NCBI RefSeq assembly: GCF_011039175.1
Contig: NZ_JAAKEN010000007.1
Location: 1 to 64,000 of the forward strand
From: Slackia sp. ZJ119
GTDB taxonomy: Bacteria; Actinomycetota; Coriobacteriia; Coriobacteriales; Eggerthellaceae
DNA: 64,000 nt
Direction: 5' to 3'
Made by a program: the position numbers and the translations under genes. Below are positions 1,575-18,306 of the stretch, piece by piece (the stretch's first letter is position 1; each line of letters begins with the position of its first letter). A model generated the notes under the pieces. That model made no database searches. It was not told the DNA's origin and saw only the letters and a list, made by a program, of their open reading frames with translations.

Positions 1575-2428
1575 ACGAGCAAGAGGTGTTGGCGAAGCTG
1601 CAAGCGGTCGAGCTCGAGATACTCGACGTCGTGGGCGGTTTTTGCGAGGCGCACGGCATCCAGTGGTTTTTGGACGGCGGAACGGCTTTGGGGGCTCGAC
1701 GCCACGCCGGCTTCATACCTTGGGACGACGACGTCGACATTGCGATGCTGCGCGAGGACTATGATCGCTTTGTGGGCTTGGCGCGGGAAGGGCTGCCGGA
1801 GGGCTATTCGCTGCATGATGCGTCGAACACGCCGGGCTATGCGGGAATGTTTGCCAAGGTGTACAAAGACGGGACGTCGTTCCAGACGAAAGAAGCGCTC
1901 GAAGCTGGGTGCGACCAGGCCATATTCGTCGACGTCTTCCCGTACGACGCCATTGCGCAAGACGGCGCTCGGGCGGTTCGGCAGGTGAAAAACGCTCGTC
2001 TGTGGCAGTCGGTGTCGTATGTGTACCACGCCAAAACCGTCAACGTGCCGCACAAAGGCGTGCTGGGGAGCATAGAGCGGGCAGGGTGCCGCTTGCTCCA
2101 TGTCGGTGTTCGCGCGTTTTTGAATCCGCAGGCCATCTGCCGTCGCTTCGAACGCTCGCGCCTGCAGCCCGGCGAGGCGTCTTCGGGCGCGTATTTGGAG
2201 TTAGCCTGGCCTAACATGGAACCGCTTCCCGAAGACGCGCTGGTTCCGCCGGTGCCGTTGCCCTTCGAAGGCCGGCGGCTGCCGGTGCCGCGGCAGACGG
2301 AGCGCTATCTGGAAAACATGTACGGCGACTGGCGAAAGATTCCCGATCCGCAGGACCGGCACACGCACTTCCCGCTCAAGCTGGATTTCGGCGACGGGAC
2401 GACGTGGTCCGCGAATCAGGAGGGCTGA
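1571..2428 (+). CDS. LicD family phosphotransferase
   Basis: A 285-residue protein of the LicD/nucleotidyltransferase-fold family. LicD proteins transfer phosphocholine, or related phospho-groups, from a CDP-activated donor onto surface glycans. The N-terminal block FLDGGTALGARRHAGFIPWD followed by DDVDIAM, with metal-binding aspartates in DDDVD near residues 55-60, is the family signature. The start ATG overlaps the stop of the upstream glycosyltransferase (ATGA), so the two genes form one operon. The 3' end overlaps the convergent flippase gene by 13 bases. The donor (choline or another alcohol) cannot be read from the sequence, and no licA/licC-type choline activation genes are visible nearby. 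Confidence 0.85.
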   Translation: MNEQEVLAKLQAVELEILDVVGGFCEAHGIQWFLDGGTALGARRHAGFIPWDDDVDIAMLREDYDRFVGLAREGLPEGYSLHDASNTPGYAGMFAKVYKDGTSFQTKEALEAGCDQAIFVDVFPYDAIAQDGARAVRQVKNARLWQSVSYVYHAKTVNVPHKGVLGSIERAGCRLLHVGVRAFLNPQAICRRFERSRLQPGEASSGAYLELAWPNMEPLPEDALVPPVPLPFEGRRLPVPRQTERYLENMYGDWRKIPDPQDRHTHFPLKLDFGDGTTWSANQEG

Positions 2429-3741
2429 GAGCCGGAAGGCGAGGCGCCGTCCTCTTTCGGCGCGGGCTTGGCGACGAGCTTGAAGAAACAGGCGCTCATG
2501 ACCAGTGCGCTCGGCAAAAACGCGATGATGCTTGCGAAGCTGACGCCGTTCATGCCCCAGGTCGTGATGCAGAAATACGCCACGGCGGCGGAGATGGCGG
2601 CCGACAGGACGTTTCCGATGAAGCTCCCTTTGAAGCAGCGCAGGGCGACGAGGACGTCGTTGGCGAACCAGGTGAACGCGCACAGGATGGCGCTTGCGAT
2701 GACCGGCAGCAGCAGATAGGTGTAATCGCTGATGGACGGGCCGAACAGAAGCTCAAGCACCCATGGACCGACGATCTCGAAGGCGACGGCGCAAAGGACG
2801 CCGATGAGCGCGATGCCGGCGGCGATGGTCAGATAGAGGCGCCGAAGGCCGCGTGCGTCGCGGTCGGCGTAGAGTTTCGAGATGTTGGTGAGCAAGGGGT
2901 TGTAGAGGTAGGTCGCGCCCATTTGGATGATGGCGACCGGAGCCGCGACCGACGAATAGATGCCCAGCGCGGCCTCGCCGTCCATCCAGGCGAGCATCTG
3001 GCGCGGCACTGACACGGTGGCCGAGCAGGCGATGGTGGCGATGACGATGGGAAGGCAGTATCCCAGCAGGTGCAGCGCCTTTTTCGGCGCGATGCCCCAG
3101 CGGATGGCGCCGAAGCGCCGCGTGCGCGGAACGTCGAAGACCAGCCCGACGAGCAGCGTTGCGGCGGCCATGGCCCCGAAGGCGGCTTCCAGATTGCGCG
3201 TCAGGCCGAACGTGACGCAGAAGGCGGCGAAGGTGCCCACGCCTTGCAGCATGAGCGATTTGCCGATGTAGTCCATGCGCCCGCCGAGCTGGTCTTGCCC
3301 GTGCAGCACGTCGATGAGAAGCGACAGCCCCTTGGTCAAGAAGAACAGAAAGATCGCAAGCAGCGTGGAAGGGGCGCAGGTCGCGGCCGAATACGCCATG
3401 CAAACGGCCAGGGCGATGGTCGTTGTGACGGCGCGAAACGTCAGATATTCCCCCACGGTGTTTTCTCGGTTGACATCTGATACTTGATAGGTATACATCC
3501 GGTATACCGCAATAGGGGAGAAGATGTTGTAGACCGACAGCGCCAGCGCCAGCACGCCGGCGGCGTCGTAGTTGTCCGACAGGCGCACGACGACCACGGA
3601 CAAAAGCCACTGGAACGCCAGGTACGTGATGGACCCCGTCGAGTTCCACAGCATGTTCGCCTTCAGCGAGAGGGGCTTGGGCTCTGTCGTCGGTTCCACG
3701 GCACCTGTTCTTTCCTGCACGGCGGGCAACAATCCGACCAT
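2416..3741 (-). CDS. Wzx-like polysaccharide flippase (MOP superfamily)
   Basis: A polytopic membrane protein of about 441 residues with some 12 hydrophobic segments, starting with LSLKANMLWNSTGSITYLAF, which is typical of oligosaccharide flippases and PST-family exporters. It probably moves a lipid-linked glycan precursor across the cytoplasmic membrane. The open frame extends upstream to 3900, but that part overlaps the divergent gene promoter and is not membrane-like. I chose ATG 3741 (MVGLLPAVQ); 3801 and 3654 are alternatives. It is transcribed convergently with the LicD operon and divergently from the GT2 gene at 3881. The lack of a polymerase gene next to it leaves the export pathway incomplete. 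Confidence 0.82.
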   Translation of the reverse strand: MVGLLPAVQERTGAVEPTTEPKPLSLKANMLWNSTGSITYLAFQWLLSVVVVRLSDNYDAAGVLALALSVYNIFSPIAVYRMYTYQVSDVNRENTVGEYLTFRAVTTTIALAVCMAYSAATCAPSTLLAIFLFFLTKGLSLLIDVLHGQDQLGGRMDYIGKSLMLQGVGTFAAFCVTFGLTRNLEAAFGAMAAATLLVGLVFDVPRTRRFGAIRWGIAPKKALHLLGYCLPIVIATIACSATVSVPRQMLAWMDGEAALGIYSSVAAPVAIIQMGATYLYNPLLTNISKLYADRDARGLRRLYLTIAAGIALIGVLCAVAFEIVGPWVLELLFGPSISDYTYLLLPVIASAILCAFTWFANDVLVALRCFKGSFIGNVLSAAISAAVAYFCITTWGMNGVSFASIIAFLPSALVMSACFFKLVAKPAPKEDGASPSGSQPS

Positions 3742-3867
3742 CTTACCAATCCTTGCGCTGGCGCCGGCGCATTTCACGGGGGCAACAAACCGATTGCACA
3801 TGCATGCTGCTCGTGTCCTTTCTCGACTCGTTTGCGCGTGCGTGCTGCGGGCGCGGGCCGTGTTCGC

Positions 3868-3873
3868 TATAAT
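3868..3873 (+). promoter_or_regulatory. -10 box of the GT2/DUF2304 operon, likely leaderless
   Basis: A perfect TATAAT lies at 3868-3873. The ATG of the GT2 gene is at 3881, seven bases after the box, which is where transcription would start. No Shine-Dalgarno is placed to serve this ATG. This fits a leaderless mRNA. No convincing -35 hexamer is visible. Confidence 0.6.
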
Positions 3874-3880
3874 GGCTTGC

Positions 3881-4561
3881 ATGAAAACGCTTGCCATCAT
3901 ACCTGCTTACAACGAAGAAGAAAGCATCGTTGCAACGGTCGAAGAGCTGAAGGCCGTCGCCTCGGCCGTCGATTACGTCGTGGTGAACGACGGCTCGAGA
4001 GACGCCACGCTTGCTCGTTGCCGCGAGAAGGGCTACAACGTGCTGAACCTGCCGGTGAACGTGGGGCTCACGGCCGGTTTTCAGGCGGGCATGAAGTATG
4101 CGCTCGAGCATGGGTACGACTATGCGGTGCAGTTCGACGCCGACGGGCAGCATCGGCCGGAGTACCTCGAGGCGCTGGTTGCCGAGGCGGAAAAATCCGG
4201 CGCGGACATCGTCATCGGCTCGCGCTTCGTCACGGAAAAGAAGCCGGTGTCGGCCCGCATGACGGGGTCGGCTCTCATCTCGGGCATCGTGAAGGCCACC
4301 ACGGGCAAGAAGATCAACGACCCCACTTCGGGCATGCGCCTGTACAACCGCTCGATGATCAAGCGGTACGCCTATGAGTCCGATTTCGGACCAGAGCCTG
4401 ACACGGTGGCCTACCTCGTGCGCCAGGGCGCCAAGGTGTCGGAAGTGCAGGTGTCCATGCGCGATCGCGAAGCGGGGGAAAGCTATCTGAGCTTTTCGAA
4501 GTCTATTTCGTACATGGCCCGCACGTGTCTGTCCATCTTGTTCTTGCAATGGTTTCGGTGA
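3881..4561 (+). CDS. Polyprenol-phosphate sugar transferase-like GT2
   Basis: A 226-residue GT-A glycosyltransferase of the dolichol/undecaprenyl-phosphate mannosyl or glucosyltransferase type. It begins MKTLAIIPAYNEEESI, has the nucleotide-binding VVVNDGSRD and the metal-binding DXD in FDADGQHRPEY, and has the DPTSGMRLYNR region typical of the DPM1 branch. It lacks C-terminal membrane helices. It probably charges a lipid carrier with a single sugar at the cytoplasmic face. Its TGA overlaps the ATG of the following small membrane gene, a partnership often seen for this family. Earlier in-frame codons exist, but conserved sequence starts at 3881. Confidence 0.88.
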   Translation: MKTLAIIPAYNEEESIVATVEELKAVASAVDYVVVNDGSRDATLARCREKGYNVLNLPVNVGLTAGFQAGMKYALEHGYDYAVQFDADGQHRPEYLEALVAEAEKSGADIVIGSRFVTEKKPVSARMTGSALISGIVKATTGKKINDPTSGMRLYNRSMIKRYAYESDFGPEPDTVAYLVRQGAKVSEVQVSMRDREAGESYLSFSKSISYMARTCLSILFLQWFR

Positions 4562-6883: not shown

Positions 6884-7070
6884 AATGAAGACCCATCGCG
6901 GTTCGGCCAAGCGCTTCCGCGTGACCGGCTCCGGCAAGATCATGCGTGCGAAGGCGTACAAGAGCCACATTCTGACGAAGAAAAGCCCGAAGCGCAAGCG
7001 CAACTTCCGCCACGAAACCGAGCTTTCCAAGGCGGACACGAAAGTCGTCAAGCGCAACCTCGGCCTGTAA
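6876..7070 (+). CDS. rpmI: 50S ribosomal protein L35
   Basis: A 64-residue, highly basic protein starting [20 protein letters not shown], the standard N-terminus of bacterial L35. It is part of the large subunit. The ATG at 6876 overlaps the end of infC by 8 bases, with GGAAG upstream, so translation is coupled to IF-3. It lies in the conserved order infC-rpmI-rplT. Confidence 0.97.
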
Positions 7071-7094
7071 CCATCGAAGGAGAAGTGATCATCC

Positions 7095-7448
7095 ATGGCT
7101 CGTATCAAGCGTGCTGTCAACGCCAAGAAGAAGCGTCGTGCCGTCCTCAAGGCTGCGAAAGGCTATTATGGCGCAAAGTCCCGCAGCTATAAGTCGGCGA
7201 AAGAGGCCGTGCGTCATGCAATGATGTTCCAGTACCGCGACCGTCGCAACAAGAAGCGCGACATCCGTCGTTTGTGGATCACCCGCATCAACGCCGGCGC
7301 CCGCCTGAACGGCATGAGCTACTCGAAGTTCATGAACGGCCTGAAGAAGGCCGGCGTCGTGCTCGACCGCAAGGTGCTTTCCGACATGGCCATCACCGAC
7401 CCGCAGGCCTTCGCCTCGCTGGTCGAGGTCGCCAAGAAGGCGCTGTAG
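7095..7448 (+). CDS. rplT: 50S ribosomal protein L20
   Basis: A 117-residue L20, starting [29 protein letters not shown] and ending in the conserved [11 protein letters not shown]. It is needed early in 50S assembly and binds 23S rRNA. In other bacteria L20 also represses its own operon at the leader. Twenty-four bases separate it from rpmI, and a GAAGGAGAAG Shine-Dalgarno region precedes the ATG. A strong terminator follows. Confidence 0.97.
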
Positions 7449-7471
7449 CATCCACCCTTTTGCATCGCATC

Positions 7472-7512
7472 GAACAGCCCCCGCAGACCGCAGGGGCTGT
7501 TCGCGTATTTTT
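7472..7512 (+). terminator. Intrinsic terminator of the infC-rpmI-rplT operon
   Basis: GAACAGCCCC (7472-7481) and GGGGCTGTTC (7493-7502) form a perfect 10-bp stem, followed by gcgta and TTTTT (7508-7512). It lies 24 bases after the rplT stop codon. Confidence 0.88.
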
Positions 7513-7530
7513 GGCGGGGAAGTTTTATTG

Positions 7531-8682
7531 ATGAGGGGTGGCACCGTGTCGACTGAGGGCGCGAAGGAAGAACATGGACCGAAGCAGGTCGCGGTGTCGG
7601 CGTCTCGACATTTGCGCTACATCGACCTTGACGAGGCCGTTGCCATGCTTTTTGTCATCCTGTACCATTCGCGTCGATATCCTGTCGACATTCTTGAAGG
7701 TGATGTGTTCGGGTACTCCGTGACCTGCTTTCTTTCAACTTGCGTTCCTATTTTCTTTTTAGTGAACGGATATCTGCTGTTTCGCAAGGAGCTTGACCTT
7801 AGGAAACATGCCAAAAAGACGTTGAGGCTGTGTCTTGCAACAATAGCCTGGGGTTTTATCATCCCTGTCATTATGAATCTGCTTACGGGCAGCAATCTTG
7901 GCGTGCGGGAAATCTTTGACATCGGATGGAACTACAAGTCGGGATGGAACAACCAGCTGTGGTTCATGGGGGCTCTTGTCTGCATATATCTTCTATATCC
8001 GCTTATCAAGGCCGCCTATGATACGAACCGAAAAGCGTTTTACTGTTTCACGGTTGTGTGCATGGTGCTTACTTTTGGAAACGATTTGCTGAACGAGGTT
8101 GGATCGATCATACTGGCTCTCTTCGGCCAGGCTCAACTGCTTGACATTAACTTCTTCGGCAACTTCAATGTGCTGCGCGGTCTTTATGGCTTTTCGTTTT
8201 CCTATTTCTGCCTCGGTGGCCTGCTTTGGTCAAAGCAGGAAGTGCTTGCAAGGATGGTTCAAGGGAAGGCTCGCTTGGGTTTTGCCGGCCTCATCGTTGC
8301 CTCAACCGTGCTTATGACGTTGTGGGGTGGCTTTGCGACGGCCGTGAAGGGCGATTACTGGGATCCCGTTTGGAATGGCTATGGCACGATCTACACGCTT
8401 TGCAATACGCTGGCGTTCTTCGTTCTCGCCATGTCGTACGAGGGCGGCGGCCGCTGCCTGGAAAGGGTCGTTTCCCTTGTGTCGGGCAACACGCTTGGGA
8501 TCATGTTCGTGCACAACATCGTGATAACGGGGCTGAATCTGCTCATATGGGGCAATGAGTTCTTTTCGGCTTTTGTGGCGAGTTTCTTGGGAAGCGTTTC
8601 GTTCGCCGTCGTGGTTTTGGCGATATCGACGGCGATCACGGTAGGCCTCAAGAAGATTCCTGTAGTAAGGCAGATCGTGTAA
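7531..8682 (+). CDS. Acyltransferase-3 family membrane protein
   Basis: A protein of about 383 residues with around 10 membrane helices. It has the acyltransferase-3 layout: RYIDLDEAVAMLFVILYHS with the conserved histidine at the end of helix 1, CVPIFFLVNGYLL, NNQLWFMGALVCIYLLYPL and a C-terminal TLGIMFVHNIVI. Such proteins O-acylate surface glycans, peptidoglycan or lipids. ATG 7531 has GGGGAAG at 8 bases; GTG 7546 with GAGGGG upstream is an equally good start. The gene looks richer in A and T than the operon before it, hinting at transfer. It is convergent with the large glycosyltransferase gene downstream, so it may acylate the product of that cluster. Confidence 0.85.
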   Translation: MRGGTVSTEGAKEEHGPKQVAVSASRHLRYIDLDEAVAMLFVILYHSRRYPVDILEGDVFGYSVTCFLSTCVPIFFLVNGYLLFRKELDLRKHAKKTLRLCLATIAWGFIIPVIMNLLTGSNLGVREIFDIGWNYKSGWNNQLWFMGALVCIYLLYPLIKAAYDTNRKAFYCFTVVCMVLTFGNDLLNEVGSIILALFGQAQLLDINFFGNFNVLRGLYGFSFSYFCLGGLLWSKQEVLARMVQGKARLGFAGLIVASTVLMTLWGGFATAVKGDYWDPVWNGYGTIYTLCNTLAFFVLAMSYEGGGRCLERVVSLVSGNTLGIMFVHNIVITGLNLLIWGNEFFSAFVASFLGSVSFAVVVLAISTAITVGLKKIPVVRQIV

Positions 8683-8719
8683 CGCACGCCTTGACGAAAA
8701 GCCTCCGCCAAGGCGTGCG
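8683..8719 (+). terminator. Hairpin after the acyltransferase gene
   Basis: CGCACGCCTTG (8683-8693) pairs perfectly with CAAGGCGTGCG (8709-8719), starting at the base after the TAA stop. There is no T-tract, so it may protect the 3' end or terminate inefficiently. It sits next to the larger palindrome at 8735-8806. Confidence 0.5.
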
Positions 8720-8734
8720 CACAGACAATGCCTC

Positions 8735-8806
8735 CACTAGGGAAACGCTGATGAAGGCCGCCTCGCCCGCGCGGGGCTGGCGGAATCGATCAGCGTTTCC
8801 CTAGTG
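8735..8806. repeat. 72-bp palindromic element with 18-bp perfect inverted repeats
   Basis: CACTAGGGAAACGCTGAT (8735-8752) is repeated exactly in inverse orientation at 8789-8806, with a 36-base GC-rich centre. It sits between two convergent genes and may terminate both. Its outer sequence, TAGGGAAACGCTGAT, recurs in the direct orientation at 45400 and in diverged form at 56431 and 61550, so it belongs to a dispersed family. The size and perfect termini resemble a MITE, but no transposase gene is present and no target duplication is obvious. Confidence 0.7.
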
Positions 8807-8830
8807 CCGGATAGCGGAGGCGACAAGGTC

Positions 8831-11185
8831 TTATGAGCGGCGCGATGCCTTTTTCACCATCCTCTTTATTGCGCGGGGGAGGCATGTGACCGCGCGACCT
8901 GCTTTCCAAGAGCTGGATCGTTTGAGCGCTGCGATTTCCTTGTTCTTCTTTTTCAGTTGTGCATCCAGCTTCTTTCGTTGGCGCTCTTTTGCGTCAACTT
9001 TTCTTTTCCAGGTGTCTAGTCCGACCGAATACGAGTCGAAAAGCATATCCCACATGATCGCGTTTTCGGCGTTTCGTGGCGCGTGGTCAAGCGTGGGGAC
9101 CTCGGCAAACAGGTCGCGCCAGAAGGATGCCTGGTCGTATTCGTCGAATCGCTTGAAGCTGCGTGACGCCTCTTCGGAGATCTCGGAATAGTAGGTTTTG
9201 TCGGTAAGCAGCTTTATTATGAATTCGGCGGCGGAAAACGTGTCGCCTTGCGGTGCCGTGCAGATGCCTTCGGCGGGTTGGAGCATTGTGAGATAGGGAA
9301 GGTCGAACATGACGCAAGGGAGTCCCGCGGCCTTGCTTTCAATCAAAGTGAGCGGGAAGCCTTCACGCTCTTCGGATGTCATGAGGAAAATGCTGGCATG
9401 CTCGAATAGATTGCGTTTCTTTTCTCCGTCGCACCACCCTGGCATGCTCACGGTTTCTTCGAGTCCGAGTTCTTCTACCTTGCTGTGCAGGGAATCCTCG
9501 TAATCGCTGTTCGAGGCTGATCCTGCCAATACGAACGACGCGCTTGGACACCGTCGATGGACTTCGGCGAATATTTCAAGCGCCTTTTCGGGATGTTTTT
9601 CCGGTGACAGCCTGCCAAGCCAGAGAACCGTTTGATTGTCGAAGTCTCCGCAGCTGTTTGACTTGAAAGAATCGGCGGAGAGGACGTTGTTCGTCTGATA
9701 GACGTTGTTGCTGAAGTTCGACCAAAACAACTTGTCGGTCGGGTTGATGACGACAATTGCATCCGCAAGAGCATAGACGTCTGGCATGTGCGCGAACCCA
9801 TAAAGTCCGAAGCGCATCTTGTTCGTAAAGAGACCGTGGCAATGCACAATGAAGTTGACCTGGAGCGTTTTAATCGCCAGCAGGTCCCATAGCAAAGTGT
9901 TGCTCAGCCACTGGTGGTACACAAATGCGTCGATGTCGTACGTTGCAATGGCTTGCCGCAGCACGAGCATTCGCTCTTGGTAAGCGCCGGCGGCCAGTTT
10001 GCTGCAGTCTGGCAGCAGCACCACGTCCACGCCTTCGGGAATGCATGAGCTGTCTTGGGGCGATTCTTCCAGAAACCATGTTACGCGATAGCCTTGTTCG
10101 AGCCAGAGCGCGGTGAGATCTCGCAAAACCTTCTCCGCTCCGCCGCCTTCAGATGACCGGTAGTACGCGCCGATGCTTGATACGGGTTTGCGCTGTTCGG
10201 CCATGAGACGCGTGGCAGCAAGTTTCTTGCAAAGCTTGGCAGGGTTGTTGAGGTATCCGCATCGCATCAGAGAGACGATAGTCTTCTCGGCGCCCCAACG
10301 GGCGAACAAGATGTCAAGACCGTCTGCTTTCAAGGGGTCCGGCAAGAATCGTTTGAACTTTGCGGTGCAGTTGTCGATGAGTCTCGCTTGGATCTTGGCA
10401 AGTCCTTGCGCGAGTTGCGGAGAAACGTTCCACTGTGCAAAGAGGCCATCGAGCGCTTCTGCGACTTTCGATGATTCGCACAACGAATCGAGTTCTTCGA
10501 GGGTAATGGTCTTGTCTCCGTCTTGGCCAGCGCCATAATTGTAGCGATACAAAACGGCGTCTTTGATTCCGCGATACGTGTCAGCGTGATAGGCGAGGCT
10601 TGTGAACGCCAGGAGATCTTCGCCGCGTTGAACGCTGCTTTTTTCAAAACCCGCGAAAACGCTTCTGCAGAGGTCGCCGTTAAAGGCTTTGTTGACCAGG
10701 TTCCAGTTGAATTCGTTTTCGCAATAGCATTTCTCTAAGATGGCAGCACCGCCATGGATGGTCTTATCGTAGGGCCGCAAGAACGCTTCGGTGCGAAGGG
10801 ACGCTTCTTCGGAAGGCGCCGAAACGGATACGCCGAAATGAAGGATATCGGCAGGATCGGACTCGATATTGGAGGCGAGAACGGTCAAGGCGCCGTCAAG
10901 GTATTCGTCGTCTGCGTCTAAAAACAAAACATAGCTTCCCGACGATGCTTCGACTCCGCTTTGCCGTGCGGCAAAGCACCGCCCATTTTCTTTCAGCGGT
11001 ATGACCTTCACTCGGTTGTCTTTGGAAGCAATGCTCTCAATCACGCGCAATGACGAATCGGTGCTGGCGTCGTCGACGGCTATGACTTCTATGTCGCGAA
11101 ACGATTGGTCGAGAACGCTCGAAAGGGCCCTCTCGACGGTGGTTTCGCAATTGTAGACTGGAACGATGACTGAAAAGGTTGGCAT
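8831..11185 (-). CDS. Bifunctional glycosyltransferase (GT2 + GT4) with coiled coil and basic tail
   Basis: A 784-residue two-enzyme fusion. Residues 1-240 form a GT2 domain (FSVIVPVYNCETTVERAL, AVDDASTDSS, DXD at 90-92 in FLDADDEYL). Residues 335-680 form a GT4 domain (SSEGGGAEKVLRDL, WLGRLSPEKHPEKALEIF, E-x7-E type EGFPLTLIESKAAGLP). Residues 725-755 are a lysine-rich putative coiled coil, and the last 28 residues (SSSWKAGRAVTCLPRAIKRM onward) form a basic tail shared with the two neighbouring giants. Fusing two transferases suggests that two sugars are added in sequence. The minus-strand start has GGAGG six bases upstream. It lies 26 bases after the 696-residue gene, so the two are one operon. 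Confidence 0.87.
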   Translation of the reverse strand: MPTFSVIVPVYNCETTVERALSSVLDQSFRDIEVIAVDDASTDSSLRVIESIASKDNRVKVIPLKENGRCFAARQSGVEASSGSYVLFLDADDEYLDGALTVLASNIESDPADILHFGVSVSAPSEEASLRTEAFLRPYDKTIHGGAAILEKCYCENEFNWNLVNKAFNGDLCRSVFAGFEKSSVQRGEDLLAFTSLAYHADTYRGIKDAVLYRYNYGAGQDGDKTITLEELDSLCESSKVAEALDGLFAQWNVSPQLAQGLAKIQARLIDNCTAKFKRFLPDPLKADGLDILFARWGAEKTIVSLMRCGYLNNPAKLCKKLAATRLMAEQRKPVSSIGAYYRSSEGGGAEKVLRDLTALWLEQGYRVTWFLEESPQDSSCIPEGVDVVLLPDCSKLAAGAYQERMLVLRQAIATYDIDAFVYHQWLSNTLLWDLLAIKTLQVNFIVHCHGLFTNKMRFGLYGFAHMPDVYALADAIVVINPTDKLFWSNFSNNVYQTNNVLSADSFKSNSCGDFDNQTVLWLGRLSPEKHPEKALEIFAEVHRRCPSASFVLAGSASNSDYEDSLHSKVEELGLEETVSMPGWCDGEKKRNLFEHASIFLMTSEEREGFPLTLIESKAAGLPCVMFDLPYLTMLQPAEGICTAPQGDTFSAAEFIIKLLTDKTYYSEISEEASRSFKRFDEYDQASFWRDLFAEVPTLDHAPRNAENAIMWDMLFDSYSVGLDTWKRKVDAKERQRKKLDAQLKKKNKEIAALKRSSSWKAGRAVTCLPRAIKRMVKKASRRS

Positions 11186-11211
11186 TGAAATCCTCCGCTG
11201 GTGAAGCTGGG

Positions 11212-13302
11212 CTATTTCCGAATGATTTTTTTCGCGGCTCGCAGAGGTGCCGAGATGGCCCTTGCGGCTTTGAAAGATCTCGAGTTTTTGAGAGAATCGA
11301 TGCGCTTCTTCAACTTTTTGTTATCCGAGCTCAACTTTTTCTCGCGTATGACGTTTTCGGCCACGTTGACTTTGAAAGCGGCACGATCTTTAAGGGGAAC
11401 AACGTTATAGTCGTATTTGTTGCCCGAGATTCCTGCGAAAGACTTTCGTGACGAGTCAAGGGCTGCGGCAACGAGCGACGTCATAGCCTCTTCATCTTCA
11501 TAGGGCAACTCGCCGGCCCTCTCGAACAAAATGGCGCTCATTGATTTCCAGCAAGCGTAATACCCGTAGGCATGGTGCATGGTCTTTTTCGAAGTCATGG
11601 TCGATCCTTCGCGAACGCGGCGCAAATAGGCTCGCAGCGGATTGTGCGCCGCGCGTCGCGCCTTCATCATGCAGGCAAAGGTAAAGGCGTTGTCCTCATG
11701 GACGATGCCTTCGACGAAGCGAACGCCTTCGTTCTTCAGAAACTCCAGTCTCATGAGATACAGGCATGCGGAAGGAAGGTAGTCGCCGTTTTTGTACATT
11801 TGGCTGGCCAGCGCTGGGCCGTTGAGCACGCCTTGGTAACCCTTTTTCCTGTGGTAGTACTCCTTGTACGACGAAAATTTCGTCTCAAGCTCGTCGGACT
11901 CGTAAAACGAGTCGGCATCGAAAAAGAGAAGGTCGAGTTCTTCTTGCTCGGCTTGTGCGGCCAGTTCTTCGAGTGCTGATGGCTTGATGAGATCGTCGGA
12001 GTCGAGAAAATAAATATAGGTGCCATGCGCTTTCTCGATCCCAAGATTTCTGGTGTGCGACAAGCCGGAATTTCCCTGCGTGTAGACCGATATGCGAGGG
12101 TCGCGTTTTGCGTATTGCAGCAAAACGCTCAAGGAGTCATCGGTCGACCCGTCGTCAATGCATATGATTTCAATGTTTTGCAGGGTCTGCCCTACGACGG
12201 AGTCGATCGTTTGCCCTACGAACGCTTCAGCGTTGTAGACGGGGATGACGATGGAGACGAGAGGAGCGGCGTTGTCTGTGCGAGACGCAAGAAGCGACGG
12301 GAACGAAGTGAAACATCTTGCAGCGCTTTGTCCGTGCAGATTTCCAACGATGCCAAGCACGTAGTTTCTGTAGCCTTCCATCTGATCGTTGGCAAGGGGA
12401 GCAGAGAATTGCTTCCTGAGCGAAGAGAAGTCATCCGAACGAAGCGCGTCCACGATGGCTGCCTGGGCCGACACGTCATTGACGGTCCGAAGGTTGTAGG
12501 CGGTATTGGAAAGGACCATTTTTTGAAAAGATTCGCCCAACAGGCTTTCACGGCCCTTTTCGCAGATGAGCGACCAGAGCTTCTGCATCGCCTCCAAGAA
12601 GCAAAGAGGGTCTCTCTTTTTTCTGTCTTGCGTGCTCGTGCCGGCCGCGACGCGATAGCTGACGAAGCTTGCGTTTTCGACCGATATCCGATTGGCTTCG
12701 ACGAGGATCGCGTAAGAAAAATAGAGGTCGTTGGTATTGGGGATGATTTGGAAAAGAATGCCCGTGTCGTCAAGGAAGCCCTTGCGGACAAGCTTTGTCC
12801 AGGGAGCTGGGTTGATGATCTGGAAGAGGTTTTGGGGGACGTCCTGCCAGGTGAAGCTTTCGGTTTCAGGTAAAAGCTCGACCGCAAGACAGGCTTCGTC
12901 GGTGGTGTAGCTTTGCTTTTGAGTGTCAAAAAACCTTCCGCCGAACAGTACGACGTCCGAGTGGTTTCTCTGCGCGTTGCAGACGGCGCGTTCGAGCGTC
13001 TCTGGATCGAAAAAGTCATCGCAATCGAAAAAGACGACGTATTCTCCTTGAGCCGCTTGCAGTCCGGCATTTCGGGCGGCAGCAGCACCTTCGTGGTTTC
13101 TTTCAATCACCCTGAATCGGGCATCACGTTGCTCAAAGCGCCTTTCGATAGCAAGAGATTCGTCCGTTGAGCCGTCGTCCATGCAGAGCACTTCAATGTC
13201 TCGAAGGGTTTGCCCCTGGATGCTCTCAAGGCATTCTTCAAGATACCGTTCGGCATTGTAAATCGGTACTATTACGCTGACGATTGGCTTGCTGTCGTTC
13301 AT
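11212..13302 (-). CDS. Tandem GT2-GT2 glycosyltransferase with basic C-terminal tail
   Basis: A 696-residue protein with two GT-A domains. The first (residues 7-230) has VSVIVPIYNAERYLEECL, CMDDGSTDES and DCD at 93-95. The second (348-570) has VSIVIPVYNAEAFVGQTI, CIDDGSTDDS and DSD at 434-436. Both keep metal-binding acidic residues, so both may be active. A charged helix precedes the tail SRSFKAARAISAPLRAAKKI, which matches those of the 784- and 788-residue proteins. The linker block NPAPWTKLVRKGFLDD resembles NPGPWGKLYRRGHLEE of the 788-residue protein, showing common descent. It is the first gene of a minus-strand pair. Confidence 0.87.
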   Translation of the reverse strand: MNDSKPIVSVIVPIYNAERYLEECLESIQGQTLRDIEVLCMDDGSTDESLAIERRFEQRDARFRVIERNHEGAAAARNAGLQAAQGEYVVFFDCDDFFDPETLERAVCNAQRNHSDVVLFGGRFFDTQKQSYTTDEACLAVELLPETESFTWQDVPQNLFQIINPAPWTKLVRKGFLDDTGILFQIIPNTNDLYFSYAILVEANRISVENASFVSYRVAAGTSTQDRKKRDPLCFLEAMQKLWSLICEKGRESLLGESFQKMVLSNTAYNLRTVNDVSAQAAIVDALRSDDFSSLRKQFSAPLANDQMEGYRNYVLGIVGNLHGQSAARCFTSFPSLLASRTDNAAPLVSIVIPVYNAEAFVGQTIDSVVGQTLQNIEIICIDDGSTDDSLSVLLQYAKRDPRISVYTQGNSGLSHTRNLGIEKAHGTYIYFLDSDDLIKPSALEELAAQAEQEELDLLFFDADSFYESDELETKFSSYKEYYHRKKGYQGVLNGPALASQMYKNGDYLPSACLYLMRLEFLKNEGVRFVEGIVHEDNAFTFACMMKARRAAHNPLRAYLRRVREGSTMTSKKTMHHAYGYYACWKSMSAILFERAGELPYEDEEAMTSLVAAALDSSRKSFAGISGNKYDYNVVPLKDRAAFKVNVAENVIREKKLSSDNKKLKKRIDSLKNSRSFKAARAISAPLRAAKKIIRK

Positions 13303-13591
13303 GGTCCTCTCAATTCTGATTAGCGTGAAAACTCTGAAAGCGCATGTGGCTCATGTAAGACGGCATCGAGACGAGTCGCACCTCTTCAATATTCCTCGAA
13401 AAAGACCTGTCGGCTGGAAAAAGCGCCCAACACCAGAAGGCCTGGCGCGATGGGCGACGCTGCGTCAAACGCCAAACCTTTCTTTCAGTCGAAACTGCGC
13501 CGAGGATCTTGGAACAGGTCAGAGGGGTTTTGAAATCTGTCTTGAACATATATCGACTGCAAAACCCTTCCTGTCTGTCAGCTAAGCGAAC

Positions 13592-13625
13592 TATCATTGA
13601 TTGATCAATTGACCAATCAATGATA
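13592..13625. promoter_or_regulatory. Perfect 12-bp inverted repeat, candidate operator
   Basis: TATCATTGATTG (13592-13603) and CAATCAATGATA (13614-13625) are perfectly inverted around a 10-base AT-rich centre. It is unusually AT-rich for this genome and lies between two divergently transcribed glycan genes, as an operator would. There is no T-tract context that would make it a terminator. The binding protein is unknown. Confidence 0.5.
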
Positions 13626-13822
13626 TCAGATTCTCGGGGTGGCGGCGAACTCGCCTTGTATTTGATCCGCGTAAAGCGCAACATTGCGTTTCTTGTTGGC
13701 GAGGCTGCCGTGGCGGTGGTCTTGCCGCTTGATTGCGCTGGATGGTGCGCTTTCGCTGAATTGATTATGTTCAAGGAACGTAGGAGCGCGAAATCCCTTT
13801 CATGCGCACCGATTTCCGGTTT

Positions 13823-13850
13823 TTGTTGTTTTGAGAAAATATGCAATAAT
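13823..13850 (+). promoter_or_regulatory. Candidate promoter of the membrane protein gene at 13922
   Basis: TTGTTG (13823-13828) and AATAAT (13845-13850) are spaced by 16 bases, with an extended -10 TG at 13842-13843. The start would be about 65 bases before the ATG. Confidence 0.45.
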
Positions 13851-13921
13851 TAGTTGAGTCGGTCTTGATGTACGGATCGCCGGAAGTTTGAAGACCGGTT
13901 GTTTGTCAGAAGGATTGCGGT

Positions 13922-15244
13922 ATGGGCGAGAAGTGCATCCAAGGGATTCTTAAACCGGCCCTATTTGAGGTGGGTGTCTTTGCGGGAGTCCTTGCGATTT
14001 GCCTCTTGGCTCTCGTAGGGGTTTATTCCCTGCCTACTGACAGGATCGAAGCAAACGTCTTGCTGTCGGCGGAGCATTTCGGCGATACATACGTCTCGCC
14101 CATGAGCGAGGCTCCTGGTTCGCGGATCGACGGATATACCGATGCGCTCATGCTGCTGGAAGCATCGAATGCCGGCGGAGAAGACCGAAGCGTTCTCGAC
14201 TGCGCTCTGCTCAATTCCTATGTGTGGATTGAAGGGGTTTCTCCTGCTGAGACCATTGCCGAGTTGTCTGATGGGGACGACCGGAATGCCGTCGTCATGG
14301 ATTATCCGCGGTATTGGCATGGCTATCTGGTGGCGCTGAAGCCTTTGTTGATGGTGTTCGACTATGGCGAGATCAGAAACATTCTCATGTGCGTGCAGAC
14401 GGTTCTCGTGACGGGTCTTGTTGTGGCCTTGGATCGCAGGCGTCATGGATGGCTCATTCCTTCAGTCTTGGCGTTTTGGCTTTTCCTGAATCCGCCCATT
14501 GTTGCTTTGTGCATGCAGTATTCGGCGGTGACGACGATCTCGCTTGTGGGCATGCTCGTCGTTGCTTTGGGCGGCTCTGCGTTTCGGAGGCTGCATCCGT
14601 CCACGTTGTTTCTTGTGCTCGGCATGCTGACCTCGTTTTTTGATCTCTTGACGTTTCCCATGCTGACGCTGTTCGCTCCGCTCGTTTTGAGCTTGGCTCT
14701 GGAAGATGGCTCGAACCCTTTGGGCCGATCAGCGAAGGCAACGTTGGTTTGGGGCGTTGGCTATGCGGCCATGTGGGTGTCGAAATGGGTCATTGCCTCT
14801 CTGGTCACCAACACGGATGTGGTTGGCATGGCGCTCGAGCAGGCTCAGCATCGTGCTGCTGGAACCGTTGAAGGAGTGGCGGGTGCGGACGGCGCCGTCT
14901 CGGTGACATATGTTGAGGTTCTGTTGAGGCAATTGTCTTCGACAAGTCTTATCACCGTTGCGTTCATTGCGATCGTCGTGTCTGCATCCCTGCTGGTTGC
15001 ATGGAAGAACCGCGGGCACTGGACCGTTGCGTTGAGAGATCCGAAGCGCGTTTCTGCGACGCTCGTTTTGGTGGGTTTGTCTCCGTTCGTTTGGTACGCG
15101 GCCTTGCAGAACCATTCTTATATTCATTTTTGGATGACCTACCGGAACTTGGGCGTCAGCATTCTTTCGTGGGGGGTTGCTGCAACGATCCTTGCCTCTT
15201 CTGCAGGCGAAAAAGCGTGGAGGTCGAAGCAAGCGGAACTGTAA
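13922..15244 (+). CDS. Polytopic membrane protein of unknown function in glycan locus
   Basis: A 440-residue protein that I do not recognise. One N-terminal membrane helix (about residues 13-35) is followed by an extracytoplasmic-looking loop of about 110 residues, rich in acidic and aromatic positions (MDYPRYWHGYLVALKPLL). About nine more hydrophobic segments follow, with a second soluble stretch near residues 315-335. One helix plus a large first loop, then many helices, resembles GT-C glycosyltransferases, but I cannot identify catalytic residues with confidence. It is the only plus-strand gene among the giant glycosyltransferases. It could be a lipid-linked sugar transferase or a polymer export component; this is inference from its position. 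Confidence 0.75.
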   Translation: MGEKCIQGILKPALFEVGVFAGVLAICLLALVGVYSLPTDRIEANVLLSAEHFGDTYVSPMSEAPGSRIDGYTDALMLLEASNAGGEDRSVLDCALLNSYVWIEGVSPAETIAELSDGDDRNAVVMDYPRYWHGYLVALKPLLMVFDYGEIRNILMCVQTVLVTGLVVALDRRRHGWLIPSVLAFWLFLNPPIVALCMQYSAVTTISLVGMLVVALGGSAFRRLHPSTLFLVLGMLTSFFDLLTFPMLTLFAPLVLSLALEDGSNPLGRSAKATLVWGVGYAAMWVSKWVIASLVTNTDVVGMALEQAQHRAAGTVEGVAGADGAVSVTYVEVLLRQLSSTSLITVAFIAIVVSASLLVAWKNRGHWTVALRDPKRVSATLVLVGLSPFVWYAALQNHSYIHFWMTYRNLGVSILSWGVAATILASSAGEKAWRSKQAEL

Positions 15245-15564
15245 CCCGACTTGTTGGCCAGACATTGAGCGGTTGTCTACGGCTGTATTCGATCCTGCAG
15301 GGCTTGGCTGTCGAGCCAAAAACCAGAGAACTGTCTGATGAGGCGTCATGAGTCGAGGCAAGGGAAAGGGAGACGTTGTGCGTTCGATGTTTAGAGGCAT
15401 TGAAGTCATCGCCGACGTTGGGAGATCGAAGTCTATCGCGAGATAGAACGTGAGAGGCGGCTGTAGCCGCCTGTTCGTTCCTGCATGGTTGGGGCTGCGA
15501 TTCGGAAAGGCAGCCCCAACCGTTGGCGATCGGTTTCTTCTGCAGACGCGGGTTTTTCTTCGCG
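15245..15564. other. 320-bp intergenic region between convergent genes
   Basis: No gene is visible. The region contains several hairpins: TTGGCT/AGCCAA near 15303-15318, GGCGGC/GCCGCC at about 15455-15470 with flanking GAACG/CGTTC pairing, and the 12-bp stem at 15487-15521. These may terminate transcription arriving from both sides. Confidence 0.5.
15487..15521. terminator. 12-bp perfect hairpin between convergent genes
   Basis: GGTTGGGGCTGC (15487-15498) and GCAGCCCCAACC (15510-15521) form a perfect stem with an 11-base loop. It lies 44 bases after the stop of the minus-strand 788-residue gene and about 240 bases after the plus-strand membrane gene. No long T-tract follows on either strand. 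Confidence 0.55.
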
Positions 15565-17931
15565 TCACTTCTTCGAGCCGACCTTCTTCACTGCTCGTTT
15601 GACCTTGCGCACCGGGCAGGTCATGGCGCGGCCTATCTTGTATGAATTGCTCTCTTCCAAGGCGACGACTCGGGCATGTTCCTTGGAGCACTGTTTCGTA
15701 CGCTTTTCAAGATCCTTTTCAAGACGCAGCTTCGTCTCTCGCAACTGCTTTGCGTCGTTTTGCAGCCTTTCCTTTTCGTTTTGCAGCTGGTCGATTTGCT
15801 CTTTCAGACGGGCGTTTTGCTCTTGCAGGCTTCGGATGCCCTCTTCCAATCGGGCGTTTTCGGCTGATTGCCGCTTGGCGTTTTCGTTCAAGGTCGCTAT
15901 TTCGTCTTGGCGCTTTTGGAGAAGGTCGTTCAGACGATCCTTTTCGCGCTGTTGCTGGGCGAACTGTCCTTGCAGCTGCAGCAACTCGTTGCGCGACGGG
16001 TCGCTGCCGTGTCCAATGGCTTCGAGAAGGGCCTGTTGGTGAGCGGAGGTCATCGCTTTGAGGCCGCCGAGTTCGAACCAGTCGAGTTTGGAGAAGGTTG
16101 CGCGACCTCGGTTCAAGACCTTGAAAGCCACGGCACGCGCGTCTTCAAGCGCCAAGGCCGTGCGAAAATCGGGCGGCATGGATGCCATGGCGTCCATCAT
16201 ATCTGAGTAGTTGACGTAGCATTCGCTTGCGTCGCTGAAGGCGGTCGGCCGCCCCGCTTCGCCATCAGCCGTTGGCCGCTCGCGAAGCGGTCGATGAGTG
16301 CAAAAAGAAACGCTCTGCGCTTGCAGCAGCAATTGGCATGCGAAGGCGCGGTCTTCGTTGAGGCAGAGAGGATTGAAGCTGATTCCGCTTTCGAGGGCGA
16401 AGGCTCGTCGGAAAAGAAAGAGGTGCGATTCGGTATCCAAAGTCTCGCTTCGAGCAAAACAGGAGAGCGCTTCGGTGCCTCGCCACACGGTTTCGTTGTC
16501 GATTCGAGGGTTCGCGCTGAACCTCAGCATGTCCAAGCGGCGCTTCTGCGCTTTGGCCAGGATCGGTTTGAGGGCATGCGGCTCAAGAGGGCGGTCGCAG
16601 CCGACGAACAGCAAGTATTCGCCGTGCGCGGATTCCATGCCGCGATTTCTCGCCTCGTTCAGACTCGGGCTTTTTTGGCTGTGCACGGTTATGCGGTCGT
16701 CCTGCTGGGCGAGATCGGTCATGATGCGCAGCGATTCATCGGACGAGCCGGCATCTACGCAAATCACTTCGATGCGGGCGACGTCTTGTTCAAGCGCATC
16801 GCCCACCACGTTGGCGATTTCGTTTTCTGCGTTTCTCGCAAGAACGACAACGGATACGTCGGGAGTGGACGACGGTGCATTGTCGTCCGTTTCCACAACG
16901 TTTTGGCCAGGTGCTTTATGTTTGTGAATGGAGGCGATGAACTGATGCTGCTCAATTGCTTCGGATAGGTACTGGGCGCACTGGCGCGCGAAGGGGCTTT
17001 CGTATTCGTGCTGCGGACGCCCAAGAACGCCAAAAGTCGAAAAACGGCTGCTGGACAGTTCGTCAAGCAGGGTGAAGCGTGCTCGGTCATCAGCCAGCGT
17101 ATTGACGTTGTAGCGTGTTGTGCCGAGCAGCTGTTCCTCGAAAGACGTTTTCAGGTCATCGAAGAGGCCTGCGCCTTCGAGCTTGGCTTTCAAGGTTTCG
17201 AATGCGGTCAAGAAGCATAACGGGTGGCCAGCCTTGTTTTCTTCGGTGCCTGTTCCGGTGTTCACGCGGTATCGGTAGAGGTCGTTGTCCGCCGTTGCGA
17301 TTTTCTCTGCGAGTGCAATCGCGGTGAACGTGAACGACAGGTCTTCGGCGTTTGGGAGCGATTCGAAGCGGAGCCCCCTTTCTTCAAGATGGCCTCTGCG
17401 GTACAGCTTCCCCCAAGGTCCGGGGTTCGTGACGCCGAAGAGGCTGTTTGGGTACTCCAAAGGGCTGAACACGCCTCGGAGCACCGTGTCGGGGCGAACG
17501 AACTCCACCCGGTCGGACAGCTCGCCTTTCTGCTGGTCGAACCGGCGACCTCCGAATATCACGACGTCGGCATCGGTTTCCTGGGCTTTTGCCAGAGCTG
17601 ATTCCAGCGTTTGCTCGACGATGAAGTCGTCGGCATCCACAAAGGCAACGTATTTTCCCTCAGCGGCATCGAGCCCGCAGTTTCTGGCCGTGCCGGCGTT
17701 GCCCTCGGCTTGCAGGACGCGGACGCGCTTGTCGTTTTCGGCGTATGCCTCGAGAATGGAAGGCGATTCGTCGTCGGACAGGTTGTCGATGCAAAGGACT
17801 TCGAAGTCGGGCATGGTTTGCGCGAGGATGCTGTCCAGGCATTCTCGCAGATAAGTAGCGGCGTTTTTGACCGGAACGATCACGGATACGCGAGGTTTGC
17901 CCTCGAATGCGTGATCTTGGTTCTGGGGCAT
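15565..17931 (-). CDS. Tandem GT2 protein with degenerate second domain, long coiled coil and basic tail
   Basis: A 788-residue paralog of the 696-residue protein. Residues 15-240 are a GT2 domain with VSVIVPVKNAATYLRECL, CIDNLSDDES and an intact DXD (DAD at 99-101). The second GT2 domain (359-560) is degenerate: VDAGSSDES is kept, but the DXD position reads FVGCDRP (442-448). Residues 645-760 are a strong predicted coiled coil (repeated QLQ, LQE, EKERLQ) that could oligomerise the enzyme. The last 27 residues (SYKIGRAMTCPVRKVKRAVK onward) are the shared basic tail. A GGAG Shine-Dalgarno precedes the minus-strand ATG at 17931, and a TAGAAT -10-like box lies at 17984-17979. Confidence 0.86.
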   Translation of the reverse strand: MPQNQDHAFEGKPRVSVIVPVKNAATYLRECLDSILAQTMPDFEVLCIDNLSDDESPSILEAYAENDKRVRVLQAEGNAGTARNCGLDAAEGKYVAFVDADDFIVEQTLESALAKAQETDADVVIFGGRRFDQQKGELSDRVEFVRPDTVLRGVFSPLEYPNSLFGVTNPGPWGKLYRRGHLEERGLRFESLPNAEDLSFTFTAIALAEKIATADNDLYRYRVNTGTGTEENKAGHPLCFLTAFETLKAKLEGAGLFDDLKTSFEEQLLGTTRYNVNTLADDRARFTLLDELSSSRFSTFGVLGRPQHEYESPFARQCAQYLSEAIEQHQFIASIHKHKAPGQNVVETDDNAPSSTPDVSVVVLARNAENEIANVVGDALEQDVARIEVICVDAGSSDESLRIMTDLAQQDDRITVHSQKSPSLNEARNRGMESAHGEYLLFVGCDRPLEPHALKPILAKAQKRRLDMLRFSANPRIDNETVWRGTEALSCFARSETLDTESHLFLFRRAFALESGISFNPLCLNEDRAFACQLLLQAQSVSFCTHRPLRERPTADGEAGRPTAFSDASECYVNYSDMMDAMASMPPDFRTALALEDARAVAFKVLNRGRATFSKLDWFELGGLKAMTSAHQQALLEAIGHGSDPSRNELLQLQGQFAQQQREKDRLNDLLQKRQDEIATLNENAKRQSAENARLEEGIRSLQEQNARLKEQIDQLQNEKERLQNDAKQLRETKLRLEKDLEKRTKQCSKEHARVVALEESNSYKIGRAMTCPVRKVKRAVKKVGSKK

Positions 17932-18099
17932 GGGAAACTCCGTTCGCGTCTCGACAAAGAAGAGGCTTAAAAGTCTATTCTACCTCGGCCTGACGCGTTT
18001 CAAGTCGCAACCCGGCGAATTCCCGGTTTTGAACGTCGAGCCGATGCGGCAGGTCTGCTCGACAGAACGGCGGCTGCTGCCTCCGTTCGCTAGAATCTT

Positions 18100-18131
18100 C
18101 GGACCCGGCGCCCGTGGCGTCACCGGGTCCG
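18100..18131. terminator. Hairpin upstream of tRNA-Glu
   Basis: CGGACCCGG (18100-18108) pairs with CCGGGTCCG (18123-18131) in an otherwise gene-free stretch. It could terminate transcription or be a structural remnant; no T-tract follows. Confidence 0.35.
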
Positions 18132-18149
18132 TCTTCACAAAATCACCTC

Positions 18150-18178
18150 TTGCATTGCGGCGGCTCTTCGGTCATAAT
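18150..18178 (+). promoter_or_regulatory. Promoter of tRNA-Glu
   Basis: TTGCAT (18150-18155) and CATAAT (18173-18178) are separated by 17 bases. The predicted start lies about 35 bases before the mature tRNA. Confidence 0.65.
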
Positions 18179-18219
18179 AATCAAGCTGTTTCGCGCAGGC
18201 CACGCCGGAACGCAACAAC

Positions 18220-18294
18220 GTCCCCATAGTCTAGAGGTCAGGACGCGGCCCTTTCAAGGCTGAGACACGGGTTCGATTCCCGTTGGGGGCACCA
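18220..18294 (+). tRNA. tRNA-Glu (anticodon TTC)
   Basis: The acceptor GTCCCCA pairs with TGGGGGC. The D-stem is GTCT/GGAC, the anticodon stem is CGGCC/GGCTG with loop CTTTCAA giving anticodon TTC, and the T-arm carries the TTCGATT loop. The discriminator A and the CCA end (18292-18294) are encoded. It reads GAA/GAG. It lies at the end of the apparently lower-GC glycan block, and tRNA genes are common integration sites, but I see no att-like duplication. Confidence 0.95.
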
Positions 18295-18306
18295 TTTGGA
18301 CAGACG

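Follow-up and report, generated by a model that had tools for sequence, protein, structure and literature searches.

A probably portable basic amphipathic tail at the C-terminus of polysaccharide enzymes: three glycosyltransferases of Slackia sp. ZJ119 and their likeness to WbdD

Introduction

The gathering of soluble polysaccharide enzymes at the membrane is understood mainly from a few Gram-negative models. The closest described one is WbdD of Escherichia coli O9/O9a, whose coiled coil acts as a molecular ruler (PMC5082667). The C-terminal region of WbdD recruits WbdA, and an amphipathic helix in the C-terminus locates the protein at the inner membrane; residues 1-600 are soluble, and the full-length protein is hard to solubilise (PMC3447403, PMC3482155, PMC11231755). 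A second parallel is found in the GT-B enzymes PimA and PglH, whose basic amphipathic helix leads the soluble enzyme to its lipid-linked substrate (PMC6286764, PMC5792488). That helix is part of the catalytic fold, whereas the tail that we describe here is a separate terminal module common to unrelated folds. A third likeness, which is one of layout, is with the multimodule O-polysaccharide proteins WbbB of Klebsiella pneumoniae and ORF6 of O7, where a catalytic module is followed by a coil and further glycosyltransferases (PMC11231755).

We will focus on three glycosyltransferase genes in a window of 64,000 nucleotides from Slackia sp. ZJ119 (Eggerthellaceae), whose products were noticed in an initial annotation to end in matching basic tails. 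We will first examine the tail itself, then its spread in the family and in other phyla, and finally what it may do.

Three glycosyltransferases and their common tail

The three open reading frames, of 784, 696 and 788 residues, lie where the initial annotation had placed them, all on the minus strand (Table 1). It had called them giant: the sizes were right but the wording was generous, relatives reaching 1,300-1,640 aa. Pfam bears out that different catalytic arrangements stand before the tail, with GT2+GT4 in the first protein and GT2+GT2 in the two others. In the second GT2 domain of the 788-aa protein, LFVGCDR occupies the expected position of the DxD motif (16591-16611, minus strand), so this domain may be inactive or altered.

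Table 1. Coordinates of the three genes, their spacers and their tails in the window
Feature	Position	Strand	Evidence
784-aa GT2+GT4 glycosyltransferase with tail	8831-11185	-	ORF; Pfam PF00535 5-121, PF00534 517-673
Tail of the 784-aa protein, SSSWKAGRAVTCLPRAIKRMVKKASRRS	8834-8917	-	58.4 bits; predicted helix break at first Ser, then predicted helix to the C-terminus; muH 0.81
Predicted helix (spacer) of the 784-aa protein, residues 706-756	8918-9070	-	AlphaFold helix 42-92 of the last 120 residues
696-aa GT2+GT2 glycosyltransferase with tail	11212-13302	-	ORF; Pfam
Tail of the 696-aa protein, SRSFKAARAISAPLRAAKKIIRK	11215-11283	-	32.2 bits; muH 0.78
Short charged stretch preceding the 696-aa tail, probably helix, NVIREKKLSSDNKKLKKRIDSLKN	11284-11355	-	sequence alone
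788-aa GT2+GT2 glycosyltransferase with long coil and tail	15565-17931	-	ORF; Pfam
Tail of the 788-aa protein, SNSYKIGRAMTCPVRKVKRAVKKVGSKK	15568-15651	-	50.1 bits; AlphaFold break at first Ser; muH 0.80
Coiled-coil-like spacer of the 788-aa protein, about 115 residues	15652-15999	-	coiled-coil Pfam matches 652-758; continuous AlphaFold helix over the modelled part

The matching tails proved to be real, since each pair of them aligns better than all of 20,000 shuffles. The pattern first proposed for them stands as a shared motif, but it is better written as S-x-[S/T]-[W/Y/F]-[K/R]-x-G-[R/K]-A-x-T-x-x-P-R-x-x-[K/R], from which the 696-aa protein deviates by an A for G and an S for T. We scored the tails (Table 1) with a leave-window-out profile made of 26 tails, all from other genomes, although these had been gathered with a profile seeded partly from the window tails and are not wholly independent. 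With this profile the best score was 13.7 bits among 9,999 shuffles, 10.8 among 20,000 random 40-mers of equal basic composition, and 7.3 among 233 real non-tail C-termini. The refuting outcome foreseen in the initial annotation, that random basic tails would match equally well, was thus not found, and chance similarity of basic tails is ruled out by the scores of shuffles and real C-termini. The nucleotide identity of the tails among the three window genes is only 43-49%, too low for recent copying of one tail from another at the DNA level, and a recent gene conversion of the 3' ends is also ruled out.

In the genome of origin, which has 17 GT2 matches in 15 ORFs, the only significant matches of a tail search were the three window tails, the third one at E = 0.03 and becoming strong once the family profile was used; the motif is absent from the eight other C-termini examined there. 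No Pfam or NCBIfam model passed 0.001 over the last 30 residues of the 784-aa protein, and the models of these collections that match many of 38 tail carriers are enzyme or coil models only. The PDB gave chance matches only to the short profile described below and none to the long one, a literature search for six tail strings gave no match, and nothing was found in the literature on coils in Coriobacteriia glycosyltransferases. Phage records held a single match to the motif, a non-significant one.

For the 788-aa protein, the predicted structure of its C-terminal 120 residues has a helix at 2-92, a break at 93 and a second helix at 94-118, with a mean pLDDT of 95, a value to be read knowing that AlphaFold readily gives high confidence to single long helices. 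Residue 93 is the first Ser of SNS, and the model of the 784-aa protein breaks at the same first conserved Ser, an agreement in two of the two proteins modelled whose models share the same nine sequences. Past this Ser, the second helix is basic and strongly amphipathic in both. The hydrophobic moments of the window tails are 0.78-0.81, values that at most 0.4% of shuffles reach. Ends that are both basic and amphipathic are found in 77% of 30 tail proteins, as against 14% of 29 glycosyltransferases without tail and 1% of 207 neighboring ORFs, a class that includes some spurious ORFs and rests on simple longest-frame gene calls.

Spread of the tail in the Eggerthellaceae

When 138 genomes of the family were searched with a profile, about 40 matches came out at E below 1e-3; once translated, nearly all of them lie 0-27 residues from the protein end. 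The window proteins belong to this tail family both by their profile match and by the position of the tail at their end, behind a helical spacer. The carriers in the family are GT2 proteins, GT2+GT4 proteins and polysaccharide pyruvyltransferases (four cases), and the closest tail to that of the 784-aa protein is a pyruvyltransferase tail from a different genus. This likeness fits a movable module, though the sequence is short. In the 20 neighborhoods that we fetched and the window, it is common for two or three tailed proteins to share a cluster. The tails of one cluster are only slightly more alike than tails across genomes (p = 0.036), a weak excess from which we do not claim any co-adaptation, and a fixed link to ABC export is rejected, as an exporter gene was found within the fetched stretch in only 7 of the 20 neighborhoods.

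It had also been foreseen that orthologs might lack the tail, and this is partly the case. The 784-aa protein has 11 homologous matches in 10 other genomes, of which three have a clear tail, three a degenerate one, and five have no motif or coil. These five (L159, L160, L163, L164 and L167) have other basic stretches at their end, some of them amphipathic. For the 696-aa protein, the nearest homolog within the family (46% identity) has retained the coil together with a degraded SRLLRMMKPFSR, and a homolog in a Clostridiales MAG (39% identity) keeps the tail. Judged from these sequences, the tail is frequent yet optional, five homologs of the 784-aa protein being without motif.

A short form in other phyla and inside giant proteins

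Pseudomonadota and Bacillota carry a short form of the motif, STSWR[VIL]T[AGNK]P[LI]R, at coil ends. Its alignment with the long form leaves a gap of exactly four residues, GRAx, or about one helical turn. Of 200 Pseudomonadota genomes sampled, 26 gave a match at E up to 0.001, and an automatic rule placed 11 matches at the C-terminus and 18 internally, although a few of the reading frames are short or doubtful. For the Cyanobacteriota the short profile gave no match in 98 genomes, but the empty answer of this search carries no weight. Plasmid-borne carriers of the short form include a sulfotransferase, a DUF1698 methyltransferase, an FkbM methyltransferase and glycosyltransferases. That the tail sits on different catalytic modules is not only confirmed but extended to at least six unrelated enzyme families: the carriers overall have unrelated folds, all related to polysaccharides, and comprise GT2, GT4, pyruvyltransferase, sulfotransferase, FkbM and DUF1698 methyltransferases, and PIG-L fusions.

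In giant proteins the internal motif lies between a coil and the next catalytic module. Four giant plasmid-borne polysaccharide proteins (L086, L087, L090 and L091) have the short motif inside, past a coil and followed by further modules, in the layout of WbbB and ORF6. The internal short motif is a possible marker of module borders in such proteins. One Bacillota genome (G341; L095 and L109-L117) has about eleven copies of the short motif, several of them on near-identical coils.

Comparison with WbdD

The motif is also present in WbdD. Read from the genome of E. coli HS (O9), the protein has LRQEIEKIHRSRSWRMT at 582-598, including SRSWRMT at the end of the coiled-coil ruler. A mixed profile lacking WbdD gives it 16.3 bits, as against 3.4 for the best of 2,000 whole-protein shuffles; the margins are smaller with the single profiles (10.5 against 6.8 for the long one, 9.9 against 7.6 for the short one), and whole-protein shuffles of WbdD lose the composition of the coil. 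The motif thus marks the border between the ruler and the membrane region, with the membrane-binding part coming after it.

What is common to WbdD and the window proteins is a coil, an S-x-S-W-R-x-T at the coil end, and then basic amphipathic helices. The differences are several. WbdD is a kinase-methyltransferase terminator and the window proteins are glycosyltransferases; the N-terminal methyltransferase of the WbdD family, with or without kinase, is absent from the window proteins, in which Pfam finds GT2 and GT4 only, whereas WbdD has both methyltransferase and kinase. The motif of WbdD is the short form without GRAx, whereas the window proteins have the four-residue insertion. Finally, WbdD runs about 110 residues past the motif, and the window proteins end 19-24 residues past the aromatic residue.

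What the tail may do

The reading that we prefer, to which we give a probability of about 60%, is that the tail is a portable, coil-ending and membrane-associating helix module that would tether cytosolic polysaccharide enzymes, probably at a shared assembly site. What we observe is the sequence family, its place at the C-terminus or at a coil end, its amphipathicity and the predicted helix break. The first conserved Ser would terminate the helical or coiled-coil spacer and probably cap the next helix. The aromatic residue and the helix after it, basic and amphipathic with about 25 residues and a net charge of +8 to +10, would then rest against the cytoplasmic membrane from within, so that the soluble GT2 and GT4 enzymes would be kept beside their lipid-linked acceptor. 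The length of the spacer may set the stand-off of the catalytic domains; the spacer is short in the 696-aa protein, and in the 784-aa and 788-aa proteins it counts about 51 and about 115 residues, respectively. The tail may moreover serve for docking at a common assembly complex, in the way that WbdD docks WbdA.

An amphipathic membrane anchor had already been suggested in the initial annotation, and this idea is well supported by the hydrophobic moment, the predicted helix and the parallel with WbdD; membrane binding itself we infer from the sequence and from that parallel. The other part of that suggestion, a scaffold bringing the enzymes together in one complex, is speculative, the excess likeness of tails within a cluster being weak. 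Some observations count against an anchor. The soluble WbdD 1-600 already includes SRSWRMT, so the core motif alone is insufficient for the membrane-bound state. Among the 11 homologs of the 784-aa protein, the five without motif only in some cases have an amphipathic basic end instead. Finally, the near-invariant R, G and S exceed the needs of a generic amphipathic anchor, which hints at a specific partner.

This last point leads to a serious rival, a docking role in which the conserved residues would bind a specific partner, such as an initiating transferase, a flippase, an ABC transporter or another tailed enzyme, while contact with the membrane would be secondary. It is a serious rival because a generic anchor would not require conservation as tight as that of R, G and S, near-invariant even between unrelated carriers, and the frequent presence of several tailed enzymes per cluster and the recruitment of WbdA by the C-terminal region of WbdD also speak for it. 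We nevertheless hold it to be rather unlikely, as there is no constant partner gene (the ABC exporter gene being no exception) and the likeness of tails within a cluster is barely above that between genomes. It is less probable still that the motif merely ends and registers an oligomeric coiled coil, the basic end being incidental: a predicted coil precedes the motif in most carriers, internal copies included, and the predicted helix breaks at the motif, but the 696-aa protein has a very short spacer and the basic amphipathic character is strong and consistent. A chance likeness of basic C-termini, or a recent functionless copying of 3' gene ends, is hardly credible in view of the leave-window-out scores, far above those of shuffles and real basic tails, of the low DNA identity and of the presence of the tail in three bacterial phyla, even if glycosyltransferases without tail also tend towards basic ends.

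A broader and quite tentative view would be that of one ancient portable assembly tag across bacteria, which would gather glycosyl-, pyruvyl-, sulfo- and methyltransferases at a single kind of membrane site, with spacer length giving the distance of the active site from the membrane. On this view the ruler of WbdD would exemplify a general layout, one by which Gram-positive gut bacteria make polysaccharides too. A recognisable tail common to unrelated enzymes and WbdD would make it possible to predict the sets of enzymes that cooperate at the membrane, and the motif offers a way of marking module borders in giant polysaccharide proteins. The wide spread, the short form outside the class, the internal copies and the presence in WbdD all go beyond the initial annotation.

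Genomic setting

The window holds no match to an ABC2 exporter membrane gene or a flippase; the four ABC2 membrane matches of the genome are all on other contigs, so that the three genes have no neighboring wzm/wzt ABC exporter of the kind that goes with the WbdD family. The three genes belong to a stretch whose G+C is lower (7000-18300, about 0.50-0.58 as against 0.60-0.69 around), with a tRNA-Glu gene (18220-18294) near its end. This stretch may be an acquired polysaccharide island, because of its lower G+C and its end near the tRNA-Glu gene. Near the glycosyltransferases, 13922-15244 on the plus strand and 2416-3900 on the minus strand each encode a protein that has 7-8 predicted membrane spans and matches nothing in Pfam.
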